Position numbers and translations under genes: made by a program. From a virus, in the IMG/VR virus record IMGVR_UViG_3300005253_001264, positions 1-25,231 of that record: 25,231 bases of DNA; one strand, 5' to 3'. A model generated the notes under the pieces. The model worked only from the letters and a program-made list of their open reading frames with translations, had not been told where the DNA came from and ran no database searches. This document shows positions 4,444-17,652 of the stretch, piece by piece. Numbering within the stretch: the stretch's first letter is position 1; every line of letters begins with the position of its first letter.

Positions 4444-4459
4444 AATAGTCTCCATAAAA

Positions 4460-4474
4460 GAATTAAAAAATTTC
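4460..4474 (-). repeat. 15-nt leader motif, left copy (inverted relative to 4926-4940)
   Basis: GAAATTTTTTAATTC on the minus strand, 16 nt before the start codon at 4443. An identical copy lies on the plus strand just before the start at 4952. A likely shared promoter or leader element of the two divergent operons. Confidence 0.6.
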
Positions 4475-4600
4475 GTTTCAATGTTGTTACGATTTTGTTT
4501 TGTTTTTGTTCTAAAGAAAATAAAAATTTATTTTTCCCCGAACAAATCCCCATGAAATTCGTAGTAATATATTTAAGAAAGCACGAAGCTTTCGCTACCA

Positions 4601-4702
4601 GTTCATGGAAGAACGAAGACAACCAAGGTAAGTGAGGCAGGAGGCCGAATATTGGTTACGTTTCGCATGAAAAGGTGAGAGCACGGCTGCTCGATAATAC
4701 CA
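4601..4702 (-). other. 102-nt duplicated intergenic element, copy B
   Basis: Read on the minus strand it starts TGGTATTATCGAGC and ends TTCCATGAAC; it matches 13411-13512 read on the plus strand and has exactly the same length. About 80 percent of the first 51 positions agree with one gap. Translated on this strand, the two copies share W-Y-x-R-A-x2-L-S-P-F, then S-A-S-C, then S-S-M-N at identical spacing, with several synonymous codon changes. Here the frame is open from an ATG at 4828 but lacks a ribosome site. It could be a structured RNA, a regulatory element or a relic gene. Confidence 0.6.
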
Positions 4703-4793
4703 GCCAAGCTTATTCCCTGCGTAATCTTCTTCCCCTTCGATGGCTTTATACCGTAAGCCTCTTCCCCTGCCATCAAAGCCACGGCTGGCAACC

Positions 4794-4827
4794 AGTCCTA
4801 TATTATCCAATAGTCCCATATTATCCA
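4794..4827. repeat. 16-nt direct repeat, period 18
   Basis: AGTCC[T/C]ATATTATCCA at 4794-4809 and 4812-4827, 15 of 16 positions equal. The second copy runs into the DnaA box; the first carries a near box (TTATCCAAT). The arrangement resembles short iterons. Confidence 0.65.
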
Positions 4828-4829
4828 CA
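4821..4829 (+). promoter_or_regulatory. consensus DnaA box (TTATCCACA)
   Basis: A perfect match to the E. coli consensus TTATNCACA. An imperfect box (TTATCCAAT) lies 18 nt to the left. A single 9-mer can occur by chance, but here it is in the only long divergent region left of 7 kb and next to AT-rich DNA. Confidence 0.5.
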
Positions 4830-4925
4830 AACAGACCGGTCGGTATGTTCTCGATGGATGGGGCAAAAGATTTTTTTATTTTATTACGAACCTTATTTTT
4901 TTTCCAGAGTATAGTTTGGAAAGCG

Positions 4926-4940
4926 GAAATTTTTTAATTC
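4926..4940 (+). repeat. 15-nt leader motif, right copy
   Basis: GAAATTTTTTAATTC, identical to the minus-strand copy at 4460-4474. The flanks also agree loosely (TTGGAAAGCG here, TTGAAACG there). It lies 11 nt before the ATG at 4952. Confidence 0.6.
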
Positions 4941-4951
4941 GGGGACATTTT

Positions 4952-5143
4952 ATGGCGTATGATATTGAAATAGAGTTTGATTCAACAGGCATCGGTATTT
5001 GCCCGGTATGTCATAGAGAAGTATGGTACGGGGCTTGCCAATATATAAGACATTATCAATGCGTTTCAGAAGTAGAAGTCTGTTCCGATTGCAAATCGGA
5101 CTTTATCAAAATAAATGACATCTTTTTTAGGGGGATAATATAA
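4952..5143 (+). CDS. zinc-ribbon mini-protein (63 aa)
   Basis: A 63-residue protein beginning MAYDIEIEFDSTGIGICPVC. Two knuckles, C-P-V-C near residue 17 and C-S-D-C near residue 44, with further Cys and His residues between them, suggest a single zinc ribbon. The ATG at 4952 has GGGGA six bases upstream and is chosen over an earlier in-frame ATG at 4916 without one. First gene of the rightward mini-operon; stop and next start overlap as TAATG. Small zinc ribbons in early phage regions often bind host RNA polymerase or nucleic acid, but nothing here proves it. Confidence 0.75.
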   Translation: MAYDIEIEFDSTGIGICPVCHREVWYGACQYIRHYQCVSEVEVCSDCKSDFIKINDIFFRGII

Positions 5144-13305: not shown

Positions 13306-13352
13306 GGTATCCCCTTTCAAGGATAAAAAAGTAGCTTTCATTTAACTATACG

Positions 13353-13376
13353 GTTCGCAGAGGAAAATGTTCGCAG
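13353..13376. repeat. direct repeat GTTCGCAG, period 16
   Basis: Copies at 13353-13360 and 13369-13376, about 50 nt upstream of the sigma-like gene start on the minus strand. Could be paired binding sites for a regulator. Confidence 0.5.
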
Positions 13377-13410
13377 CAAAATAAAAATATTTTATATATA
13401 GTGGGGTACA

Positions 13411-13512
13411 TGGTATAATCGAGCGTCCCGGCTCTCCCCTTTTCCATGCGAATTAGAACCAAGTTCAGCATCGTGCTTCGTTGTATTCTTCTTTTTGGAT
13501 TCATCCATGAAC
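13411..13512 (+). other. 102-nt duplicated intergenic element, copy A
   Basis: Starts TGGTATAATCGAGC (an extended -10-like TGnTATAAT) and ends CATCCATGAAC. Matches 4601-4702 on the minus strand at the same length. The reading frame shared with the other copy is closed by TAG at four codons upstream and has no start codon here, so this copy is not an intact gene. Confidence 0.6.
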
Positions 13513-13642
13513 ACTTTGATACGCTCGCTTCCATGCTCGCTTAGTGTTGTCCCTTTTTAATTTATGCAAAATGGACGGTTAAAATGATAAATTTTATTTT
13601 GTCTTTTATTCATAAGTTGTTTAGAGGGAAGGAATTAAAATT

Positions 13643-13708
13643 TTTTATTTTTATTTTGAGGATTCAAACAACTGTTTGAATTTTACATTTATTTTATTTT
13701 TATTTTGA
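13643..13708. repeat. 17-nt direct repeats flanking a dyad
   Basis: TTTTATTTTTATTTTGA occurs at 13643-13659 and identically at 13692-13708. Between them lies ATTCAAAC-aact-GTTTGAAT (13662-13681), a perfect 8-bp dyad. The symmetric layout, 53 nt before the packaging operon, suggests a protein-binding site or promoter control. Confidence 0.6.
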
Positions 13709-13760
13709 AAAGAGTCTAAATTACCCATCCATTCAGCTTAATATATAGAGGGAGACCATA

Positions 13761-14455: not shown

Positions 14456-15208
14456 TTGAGTGATAGCTGTAATCCAGACTCCACGACCGGGAAAGCCATA
14501 AGACGGAAACTCCAAAAAGGGGCTAAGTATAATTATGACTTTGTACAGGTGGCATCAAGGATGGTAGCTGCCGGTATGACTGAAAGGGATATTGGTTACG
14601 TTCTTGGTGTAAAGCCAACTACCATATCAAAGTGGAAGCAGAGATATTCTGAATTCAAACGTGCAACTGATTCCAAATCATCCGCAAAACAAATAGCAAC
14701 ATCACATCTTGTAGCCAATGGATTGAGGTCTGCAATAGGTTATGATTTCGAGGAAATAGATCAAGTATTCAAAAGAATAAAGAATCATAATTGGGATGAA
14801 GAGAATCCTGATGCTTCTGAAGAGTACATATTGGTCATTGATAAGGAAACAAGAAAACTAAAGCACCGTGCTCCTGATAAAGATTTACTAATGTTCTTTT
14901 TGCTTAACCTGAGTAATGAATATCATAACGTAAGATCAATTCAAGTAGAACAGACCAAGAAGCAAATAAACGTAAGTATTACTGGTCATCTTGAATCTGC
15001 TGATATTAGAAAATTGGCCGGTGCTGCATTTAAGACTGCGGACACTTTGGACAAAAAAACAAAAGTGATTGAAAGTAAAGTCGTCGATGTCATTGATGGT
15101 GAGTTTAATAATGACAGCATATCGGTCCCCCGTTGTGCTGACATTATTAAAGTTTCCAGCGATGTCAACGATGAATTTCTTGAAAGTATACTTGATGAAA
15201 AAGTGTAG
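14456..15208 (+). CDS. terS: terminase small subunit
   Basis: A 250-residue protein with an N-terminal helix-turn-helix (about 28-66: ASRMVAAGMTERDIGYVLGV, then KPTTISKWKQRY), a central helical part and an acidic C-terminus. The position directly before the large terminase, with an intervening endonuclease, and the HTH fit the DNA-recognition subunit that forms a ring on the packaging site. Start is TTG with AGGG eight bases upstream; no ATG lies near. The first thirteen residues, MSDSCNPDSTTGK, resemble the HNH protein's N-terminus. Its last 14 nt overlap the endonuclease VII gene. Confidence 0.85.
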   Translation: MSDSCNPDSTTGKAIRRKLQKGAKYNYDFVQVASRMVAAGMTERDIGYVLGVKPTTISKWKQRYSEFKRATDSKSSAKQIATSHLVANGLRSAIGYDFEEIDQVFKRIKNHNWDEENPDASEEYILVIDKETRKLKHRAPDKDLLMFFLLNLSNEYHNVRSIQVEQTKKQINVSITGHLESADIRKLAGAAFKTADTLDKKTKVIESKVVDVIDGEFNNDSISVPRCADIIKVSSDVNDEFLESILDEKV

Positions 15209-15641
15209 TCGGTGTGGCGAGACAAAAACACTGGATGACTTCCCTAAACACAAGCAATGCCGGGACGGACATATTGGTGTTTGCAAATTGTGTAGATATG
15301 ACGATAGAAAGAAGTGGCTGAAAAATGGTGGTAATAAAAGGGATGCTGCTATTGCAAGAAAGTACAGAACTACCCGTAAGGAAAAAGAATCCAGACTTAT
15401 GAGAGAGTATGGTCTTTCTTCCGCCGAGTGGCAGATTCTCTTTGATGGACAAAAAGGCAAGTGTCTTATTTGTGATACATATCAGGCTGATTTGAAACAG
15501 ACTCTTAATGTTGATCACTGTCATACCACCGGAAGGGTGCGAGGTTTACTATGTGGACCTTGTAATCAAGCACTTGGAATTATGAGGGATGACAGGAATA
15601 TTGTACTTAGGATGGTAAAATACATTGACGGCCATTGCTAA
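15195..15641 (+). CDS. recombination endonuclease VII family protein
   Basis: A 148-residue nuclease. N-terminal zinc module C4, C7, C30, C33 (MKKCSRCGETKTLDDF...), then the endonuclease VII core: C90-L-I-C93, D107-H108-C109-H110 (NVDHCHTTGRVRGLLC), C120-G-P-C123-N124, L-G. T4 endonuclease VII resolves branched DNA during packaging; many phage relatives behave as homing enzymes. The core is intact (zinc cysteines, the DHCH and the Asn). It lies between the two terminase genes and overlaps both, so it could act with packaging or be an inserted mobile gene. The ribosome site is weak (GAAAG). Confidence 0.9.
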   Translation: MKKCSRCGETKTLDDFPKHKQCRDGHIGVCKLCRYDDRKKWLKNGGNKRDAAIARKYRTTRKEKESRLMREYGLSSAEWQILFDGQKGKCLICDTYQADLKQTLNVDHCHTTGRVRGLLCGPCNQALGIMRDDRNIVLRMVKYIDGHC

Positions 15642-17652
15642 ATCTTTAGATACACCAGAAGGATTCTTTGAGGCAATACCTTCTAATGTCGCTGAGAATA
15701 TATCATGGAGAATGGATTTCCACGATAAGATAGCGAAAGATGCAGAGATGCAGAAAGTGTATAAGGCTTTATGTTGGAAGGATATAAAAATACTTTTCAA
15801 CTCTGCTTTGTGGGTTTACGACGCGGAGGGACCAACAGGAAAACGCAACCGGCCTTTTATTTTGTGGAAGCATCAGGAAGTTGCAGTCGATGCTATTCAC
15901 GACAGTATCCTAACGCAACACTGTATGGTTATCGACAAGTCTCGAAAAGAAGGAGCTACTGAGATTATATGTAAGACATTTGCCGGACATTTTCTGCTTG
16001 ACCCTGAGAGTAACTTTTTAGTTGGTTCAAGAAAAGCTGAATTTGTCGATAAAGGAGTAGAGATAATAAATGGCAAATTGATTGGATTACATAAGTCTTT
16101 GATGCACAAAGTATGCTATGCTCTTACAACCCTCCCAAATTGGCTGAGAGCTAATTTACTAAAAACATACATGCTGGTGCAGAATCTGGATAATTCAGCA
16201 GCAATAAGTGGTGAAGCAACGAATGAAAGTTTTGGAGCAGGGGATAGACAAAAGGGTGTGCTTGTGGATGAGATGGGCCGCACAGACCACAACATGGCCC
16301 TGAGTATCAATGACTCTATTCACGATACCTCAGATTGTGTTATTTTTAATAGTACTCACTTTTTCGGAGTAGAACATCCTTATAATCAACTATTGACTCA
16401 AAAGTATGGTGAGATACCGGTTATCATAATGCCTTGGACAGATAACCCCAATAAGAATAAGGGTTTATATCTTTCTCCTGATTATGATGTCGTTGAGATA
16501 AAAGACATAAAATGTTACAGAGAACTATGTCCAGAAGTATTTAATGACATTGAACCCATGAAAGGGTTCAAGATAAGTGAACTCAGAAGAGAGAATAAAG
16601 ACAAACCTTGGTCGGAAAAACTGGAAGCTATTAAGTTTACTGCTGACGGTGGAGATCTTAATGAAGGGGGCTGGAGAAGTCTCTGGTATGATAAGAAATG
16701 CAGAGAAAGACGACCGAGAGACATTGCCTGTAATATTGACAGACGACCAAAAGGTTCTGGCTCTTCTGTTTTCACGAATGCAACATTACACAGGATAGAA
16801 CAAACTACAGTATATACTCCAAATTTTGTTGGAGATGTTATTATAAAAAGAGGCAGAGATCATCTTGTATCAGGGGGGCGTGTAGTTCCGGGTGGTATAG
16901 GAAGACTAAAGTGGTGGGGGAAATTAGATAATGGTAGACCCGATCAAACACATAGTTTTATCATTGGTGGTGATATTGGTCTCGGTCGTGGAGCATCCAA
17001 TAGTGTTCTCAGTATTGTGGATGTCAACCTGAGTGAAGAAGTTGGTCAGTGGATTTGTCCGAGTACATCACCAGAAGATTTTGCAGACATTGCTGTAGCA
17101 TTATGTTTTTGGACTGGTGGACTTAAAAAGAGTACTTATCTGATATGGGAATCAAACGGAATTGGTGGAGTATTTGAAGGAAGAGTAGTAAAAAACAAGT
17201 ATCCATTCCTATATGTTCGTAGAGATGAGACAGTAAAACGTAAAAAGAAAAAAAATAAACTCGGCTGGCATAGTTCAAAAGGACCGGACGGAACAAAGTA
17301 CAGATTGCTAATGGATTTAGATGTAGCTCTCAAAGAGGGACTCAGTGATAATCCTATATCAAAACATCTGACGATTCATTGTGAACAAACTATAAGGGAA
17401 ATGGAATCTTACTTGTTCAATAATGCCGGTACTCCCCATCCAGCAAAGTTATCCAATGATGACGATTCAAATGCGAGTGCAGCACATGGAGATAGAGTTA
17501 TTGCTTTGGGCTTGTGTTGCTTGGCTTTATCATATCAACCAAAGGCATTTATAGAGAGACAGAAAGAGAAGGGCGGGAATACTCTCGGAGACAGGATGAA
17601 AACAAGGAAGTTGGAAGCAGCAAGGAAGAGTAACCGTAGGTTTATATATTAA
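15625..17652 (+). CDS. terL: terminase large subunit
   Basis: A 675-residue packaging ATPase and nuclease. ATPase: deviant Walker A at about 106-113 (SRKEGATE) and Walker B at 211-216 (GVLVDE). Nuclease of the RNase H type: D450 (IIGGDIGLG), E509 (IWESNG) and D623 (HGDRVIAL), all in place. It drives DNA into the portal and cuts the concatemer. The TTG start at 15625 overlaps the endonuclease gene by 17 nt; no closer ATG exists before residue 30. GGATGG is eleven bases upstream, a longer spacing than usual. Confidence 0.95.
   Translation: MTAIAKSLDTPEGFFEAIPSNVAENISWRMDFHDKIAKDAEMQKVYKALCWKDIKILFNSALWVYDAEGPTGKRNRPFILWKHQEVAVDAIHDSILTQHCMVIDKSRKEGATEIICKTFAGHFLLDPESNFLVGSRKAEFVDKGVEIINGKLIGLHKSLMHKVCYALTTLPNWLRANLLKTYMLVQNLDNSAAISGEATNESFGAGDRQKGVLVDEMGRTDHNMALSINDSIHDTSDCVIFNSTHFFGVEHPYNQLLTQKYGEIPVIIMPWTDNPNKNKGLYLSPDYDVVEIKDIKCYRELCPEVFNDIEPMKGFKISELRRENKDKPWSEKLEAIKFTADGGDLNEGGWRSLWYDKKCRERRPRDIACNIDRRPKGSGSSVFTNATLHRIEQTTVYTPNFVGDVIIKRGRDHLVSGGRVVPGGIGRLKWWGKLDNGRPDQTHSFIIGGDIGLGRGASNSVLSIVDVNLSEEVGQWICPSTSPEDFADIAVALCFWTGGLKKSTYLIWESNGIGGVFEGRVVKNKYPFLYVRRDETVKRKKKKNKLGWHSSKGPDGTKYRLLMDLDVALKEGLSDNPISKHLTIHCEQTIREMESYLFNNAGTPHPAKLSNDDDSNASAAHGDRVIALGLCCLALSYQPKAFIERQKEKGGNTLGDRMKTRKLEAARKSNRRFIY

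Follow-up and report, generated by a model that had tools for sequence, protein, structure and literature searches.

Candidate CsrA decoy RNAs of uncultivated tailed phages, some of which carry two inverted copies

Introduction

What is the element that stands, in inverted orientation, in both divergent control regions of an uncultivated phage? The window analysed here is a whole stretch of 25,231 nt, a 25-kb virus record that encodes a family A DNA polymerase and a terminase. A sequence-only reading had noticed that 4601-4702 and 13411-13512 resemble each other, and it had weighed past coding, a promoter with a leader, and a small RNA as explanations. The analysis below makes it rather probable that the element is a phage RNA titrating host CsrA, encoded on the strand with GGA loops (the GGA strand) in two inverted copies.

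CsrA/RsmA controls metabolism and motility. The same regulator controls CRISPR-Cas expression in Serratia (PMC8450108), and csrA genes are carried by phages and plasmids (PMC7366521). RsmE binds hairpins with an ANGGAN hexaloop in which N is variable (PMC7652899), and RsmN binds the AAGGAU loop of RsmZ (PMC3791407). The TwoAYGGAY RNA (RF01731) of Clostridia and gammaproteobacteria contains tandem G.A and is a CsrA-binding sRNA by proposal, as yet unproven (PMC4333381).

Extent and distribution of the element

The match between the two copies is real. Aligned without gaps, minus-strand 4702-4601 and plus-strand 13411-13512 were identical at 62 of 102 positions from end to end, including 24 of the first 30 and 9 of the last 10. 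The gapped local score of copy 1 against copy 2 was 52, compared to a maximum of 34 in 500 dinucleotide shuffles and of 31 among about 1000 random pieces of the window. The equal length of 102 arises through compensating indels, and relatives show that the element extends past its first proposed 3' end: copy 1 reaches about 4555, and copy 2 about 13566. Both copies lie between divergent genes, as had been described, in gaps at 4456-4950 and 13342-13760.

4555..4702, plus strand: copy 1, proposed RNA (GGA strand), in the reverse orientation to copy 2 and directed toward a small rightward operon at about 4951; based on the match to copy 2 and on the second copies that L011 and L014 have at the corresponding place, termini approximate
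13411..13566, minus strand: copy 2, proposed RNA (GGA strand), directed toward the operon of the sigma-region-4-like gene and DNA polymerase; based on homologous elements in seven relatives and on GGA hairpins, termini approximate

One contig was near-identical to the window, and further contigs were gathered through polymerase and terminase alignments. The sequence-only reading had let the element stand or fall with its recurrence in related phages and with a match beyond chance. Neither condition refutes it, since the match exceeds chance and the element is conserved at the same place in seven relatives (L003, L027, L009, L012, L013, L014 and L011), in a gap with the sigma-region-4-like gene, which adjoins the DNA polymerase, on one side and a small HNH-like gene on the other. 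Three records (the window, L011 and L014) had a second, inverted copy, with the same orientation of the two copies to each other; in this count, most other records are fragments. In L011 and L014, the second copies sit in a second control region. In more distant contigs of 45-48 kb, a second array was not found. When copy 2 was searched against the DNA of annotated phages, no match was returned, and pattern scans for extra copies returned known relatives only, plus chance hits in unrelated genes. Among the bacterial genomes searched for a host link, none had the terminase, and polymerases were only 22-32% identical and came from mixed phyla.

Elsewhere in the window, a tRNA-Asn (GTT) gene at 2443-2514 on the minus strand adjoins a radical-SAM protein gene (1151-2359). 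The 102 nt at 15077-15178, which end a terminase-small-subunit-like gene, match their own reverse complement at 72.5% and form a long imperfect palindrome.

Coding potential

The amino acids that the two window copies share in one frame had been read as a hint of past coding, and would fit a decayed duplicated coding sequence. This origin was rejected. The spacings between conserved blocks vary by non-multiples of three (28, 31, 35, 57, 58, 60 and 69), stops interrupt almost all frames of almost all copies, and the frame of the conserved TGCGAA block differs between the two window copies. With the frame lost, stops throughout and indels not in threes, the relatives already refute a coding remnant, which is now hardly credible.

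Hairpins and strand of the element

The conserved blocks form small hairpins on the strand opposite to that on which the match had been quoted (here called the TGGTAT strand). Their arms vary, and their loops stay constant as C-A(n)GGA(n)-G. Hairpin D takes the form (G)CGAGC-AnGGAn-GCGAG(C), hairpin C the form UUC-AnGGAn-GAA, and hairpin E either AGCA-GGA-UGCU or GGC-AGGAR-GCC. The features in the window are as follows.

4601..4614, plus strand: copy 1 hairpin C, GUUC-AUGGAA-GAAC, GGA loop
4632..4650, plus strand: copy 1 hairpin E, GUGAGGC-AGGAG-GCCGAAU, GGA loop on a tandem G.A stem; L011 has this form too
4679..4692, plus strand: copy 1 hairpin A, GAGCA-CGGC-UGCUC, with GGC instead of GGA
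13421..13434, minus strand: copy 2 hairpin A, GAGC-CGGGAC-GCUC
13442..13452, minus strand: copy 2 block B, UUCGCAUGGAA, which varies least of all blocks
13467..13477, minus strand: copy 2 hairpin E, AGCA-CGA-UGCU, stem retained, GGA changed to CGA
13499..13512, minus strand: copy 2 hairpin C, GUUC-AUGGAU-GAAU, GGA loop; arms covary in relatives
13523..13540, minus strand: copy 2 hairpin D, GCGAGC-AUGGAA-GCGAGC, GGA loop on a tandem G.A stem

In an alignment built without structure, 97.3% of pair cells were paired, compared to 26-53% when slid. Covariation in the same alignment was 0.333 versus 0.154 in shuffles, and none of 500 shuffles reached it. The outermost pair of hairpin C was seen as UA, AU, CG and GC, the outer C-G pair of hairpin D becomes U-A in L003 and L027, and the stem of hairpin E in copy 2 covaries with the GGC/GCC form in copy 1 and L011. 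An alternative pairing, of block B with the 3' arm of hairpin D, agrees with the data, but it competes with that hairpin and was not relied on.

A preference for the GGA strand was observed. Stems over 18 regions contained seven G.U and no A.C oppositions. In hairpin D, two G.A oppositions lie side by side between the inner and the outer pairs; such tandem G.A would be U.C on the TGGTAT strand. All 11 copies carried two to three CA(n)GGAnG sites on the GGA strand and none on the other, against a shuffle expectation for CANGGANG of about 0.1 per copy. In the elements, 29 of 53 GGA were in loops with four or more closing pairs, compared to 17% of phage GGA generally. The RNA structure of the element is well supported; the small RNA that had been offered as an alternative was right in kind, with the opposite strand now the better supported one.

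Several results were counted against a CsrA decoy. Copy 1 of the window has two GGA sites only, and RNAalifold recovered only two of the hairpins. The rules for calling hairpins were also picked when the close group had already been seen. Whole-element folding energies were near those of shuffles on both strands, which counts mildly; the separate short hairpins may be the cause of this unremarkable energy.

The inverted repeats could also act as DNA, as iterons or a replication origin adjoining A/T-rich DNA, with repeats that form cruciforms. In line with this, there are A/T-rich tracts, copy 1 has one DnaA-box-like site nearby, and the GC skew has a minimum close to copy 2. However, the GC skew is confounded by gene orientation, and the arms vary yet remain complementary while the loops stay GGA, the reverse of selection by a protein that binds duplex DNA. 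A DNA-level role is accordingly highly improbable.

GGA loops in distant relatives

Loop specificity was assessed in distant relatives that had been left out of motif recognition, with all 64 trinucleotides as the loop control. GGA was the top loop of the 64 in the gap, with 22 hairpins in 16.7 kb versus 64 in 357 kb elsewhere (7-fold, p 2e-11), and the next-best trinucleotide had eight; 18 GGA hairpins remained without near-duplicate contigs (p 3e-9) and 14 without tandem G.A (p 2e-6), although the contigs are mutually related and these p-values overstate independence.

A scan for GGA-hairpin clusters found them in this gap in L060, L061 and L029, and GGA hairpins were present there in L018, L021, L025, L028 and L016 as well. 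The L060 array consists of GGCA-GGGA-UGCC, AUCCA-GGA-UGGAU, GGGAC-AGGAA-GUCCC, GGGAGA-AUGGAA-UCUCCC and CGAGC-AGGGA-GCGAG. In L060 and L061, the array is on the strand that points the opposite way, which was counted against a decoy. In L021, L025, L028 and L029, the loop of the last hairpin, CGCAGGGA, is constant and the arms are re-paired (GCCC/GGGC, AGCTC/GAGCT and GGATTC/GAATCC). Hairpin clusters at window 15610-15716 and at L060 15931 fall inside predicted genes or extend across them, and were regarded as chance occurrences.

These loops bear on the binding partner. Any phage-host link through CsrA is putative, and some loops are GGGA, a GNRA tetraloop, so that the hairpins might instead be bound by another protein that reads GGA loops, such as a regulator or antitermination protein of the phage. 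We regard this as quite unlikely. The loops are also UGGA, CGGA, AGGA and plain GGA, and the invariant preceding A with C-G closing is the pattern of CsrA/RsmE.

Promoter-like sequences and conserved boxes

Both copies had been said to begin with an extended -10-like sequence.

4689..4702, minus strand: extended -10-like sequence of copy 1, TGGTATTATCGAGC, conserved in the window copies and L003 only
13411..13424, plus strand: extended -10-like sequence of copy 2, TGGTATAATCGAGC, conserved in the window copies and L003 only

The shared start was confirmed for TGGTAT[A/T]ATCGAGC in both window copies and in L003 (14 of 14 positions). In L027 it is degenerate, and the L009/L012/L013/L014 group lacks it, so that it is no defining feature of the element. 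A promoter at this block could drive an RNA from the TGGTAT strand whose UCC loops could pair with Shine-Dalgarno sequences. Its conservation in three copies favours such a promoter and leader, as does the good folding of copy 1 on that strand (z -3.1). However, the block is missing in half of the close relatives, the G.U pairs become A.C and tandem G.A becomes U.C on this strand, and the loop control gives TCC only 7 hairpins versus 22 for GGA. This alternative, to which the sequence-only reading had given a place, is very unlikely, and the GGA strand is the better supported one.

On the GGA strand, a promoter-like TTGACA...TGGTATAAT lies shortly upstream in four relatives (L021, L025, L028 and L029). 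In the window, neither a consensus promoter nor an intrinsic terminator was found on the GGA strand, and this was counted against a decoy.

Other conserved sequences were observed in the control regions. In L003, four tandem TGGTA repeats at 5027-5065 end in the conserved TGGTATAATCGAGC block. A GTTCGnnnnAAAATAAA box is present at the edges of both control regions (window 4508-4543, 4875-4891 and 13369-13385), with four sites, two of them forming a 36-bp inverted pair, compared to 1.5 expected with up to three mismatches. It is conserved upstream of the polymerase operon in relatives and probably belongs to a promoter or regulator site of the phage. In all close relatives, TATATAGAGGGAG (window 13741-13754, with equivalents in L014, L013, L012 and L011) precedes the HNH-like gene, and the similar TTATAGAGGG is found where the GGA-strand RNA would begin in L012, L013 and both L014 copies; the two are a candidate shared phage promoter. 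A search for a single-subunit RNA polymerase, made for the idea that TATATAGAGGGAG is a T7-like promoter, gave no match, but its control search likewise gave none, which makes this negative uninformative. The repeats GTCC[T/C]ATATTATCC in the region of copy 1 (window 4795-4829; about 13240-13270 in L014 and about 15725-15760 in L011) resemble a TATTATaGGACGTGTCCgATAATA palindrome in L014, and are likely operators. A DnaA-box-like TTATCCACA lies at window 4821-4829.

Comparison with known CsrA-binding RNAs

TwoAYGGAY and the element share GGA loops closed by C-G, a tandem G.A stem and several hairpins per RNA (PMC4333381). Their overall architecture differs, and the element is found in phages and in two copies. 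AUGGAU and ACGGAU loops and, in most copies, tandem G.A in hairpin D follow the TwoAYGGAY pattern, and other loops, such as AAGGAG and AGGGAU, deviate from A-Y-GGA-Y. In an Rfam scan of the L011 element, only TwoAYGGAY surfaced, on the predicted strand, at 16.9 bits, far below the gathering cut-off of 43. The TwoAYGGAY model gave no match in the window or 18 other records, and the window and L014 elements had chance-level Rfam matches or none.

CsrB, CsrC, RsmX, RsmY and RsmZ, which sequester CsrA/RsmA, are like the element short non-coding RNAs with multiple ANGGAN hairpins, whereas the element is phage-encoded and has fewer sites per RNA (2-5). By the strict rule, each copy has two to three hairpin sites with ANGGAN loops, and L060 has up to five. 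The CsrB model RF00018 gave no match at E <= 10 in 20 records. With GGA and tandem G.A likeness but Rfam scores below the cut-off, the element resembles RNAs of the CsrB and TwoAYGGAY type and is a member of no Rfam family tested.

Phage and plasmid csrA genes are also mobile elements that touch the host Csr system (PMC7366521); there a protein is carried, whereas here it is an RNA with putative CsrA sites. No csrA gene was found in 15 of the phage records, and no report of a phage-encoded CsrA decoy RNA was found in the open-licence literature searched.

Discussion

We infer CsrA as the partner because the loops match the ANGGAN bound by CsrA/RsmE. In the proposed mechanism, the RNA gene would be transcribed in the window phage from the strand opposite to the TGGTAT strand. 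The transcript would fold into a row of hairpins with A(n)GGA(n) loops, a C-G closing pair and often tandem G.A stems, and these loops would bind host CsrA dimers during infection. Titration of CsrA would then release mRNAs that are normally repressed or stabilised by it.

The same hairpins could instead act in cis, as the 5' leader of the neighbouring early operons, with CsrA binding controlling these operons and no titration. The GGA strand faces the polymerase operon except in L060 and L061 (copy 1 faces the small rightward operon), and the array and the operon have no terminator between them. On the other hand, L029 has a second promoter-like sequence between the array and the next gene, the close group has a conserved promoter-like box in between (read by eye), and the orientation is reversed in L060 and L061. 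Furthermore, three to five sites per RNA in two copies are a better fit to titration. A cis-acting leader is thus unlikely, though the likeliest of the alternatives.

For the group as a whole, the balance leans, a little more cautiously, toward a whole family of uncultivated tailed phages whose genomes encode RNA decoys for CsrA/RsmA, some of its members in two inverted copies. If this is true, these phages commandeer a global post-transcriptional regulator of the host by RNA instead of protein. A phage decoy RNA would be a compact reset of the host in early infection, and it would bear on the proposal that CsrA-binding sRNAs exist beyond gammaproteobacteria (PMC4333381).
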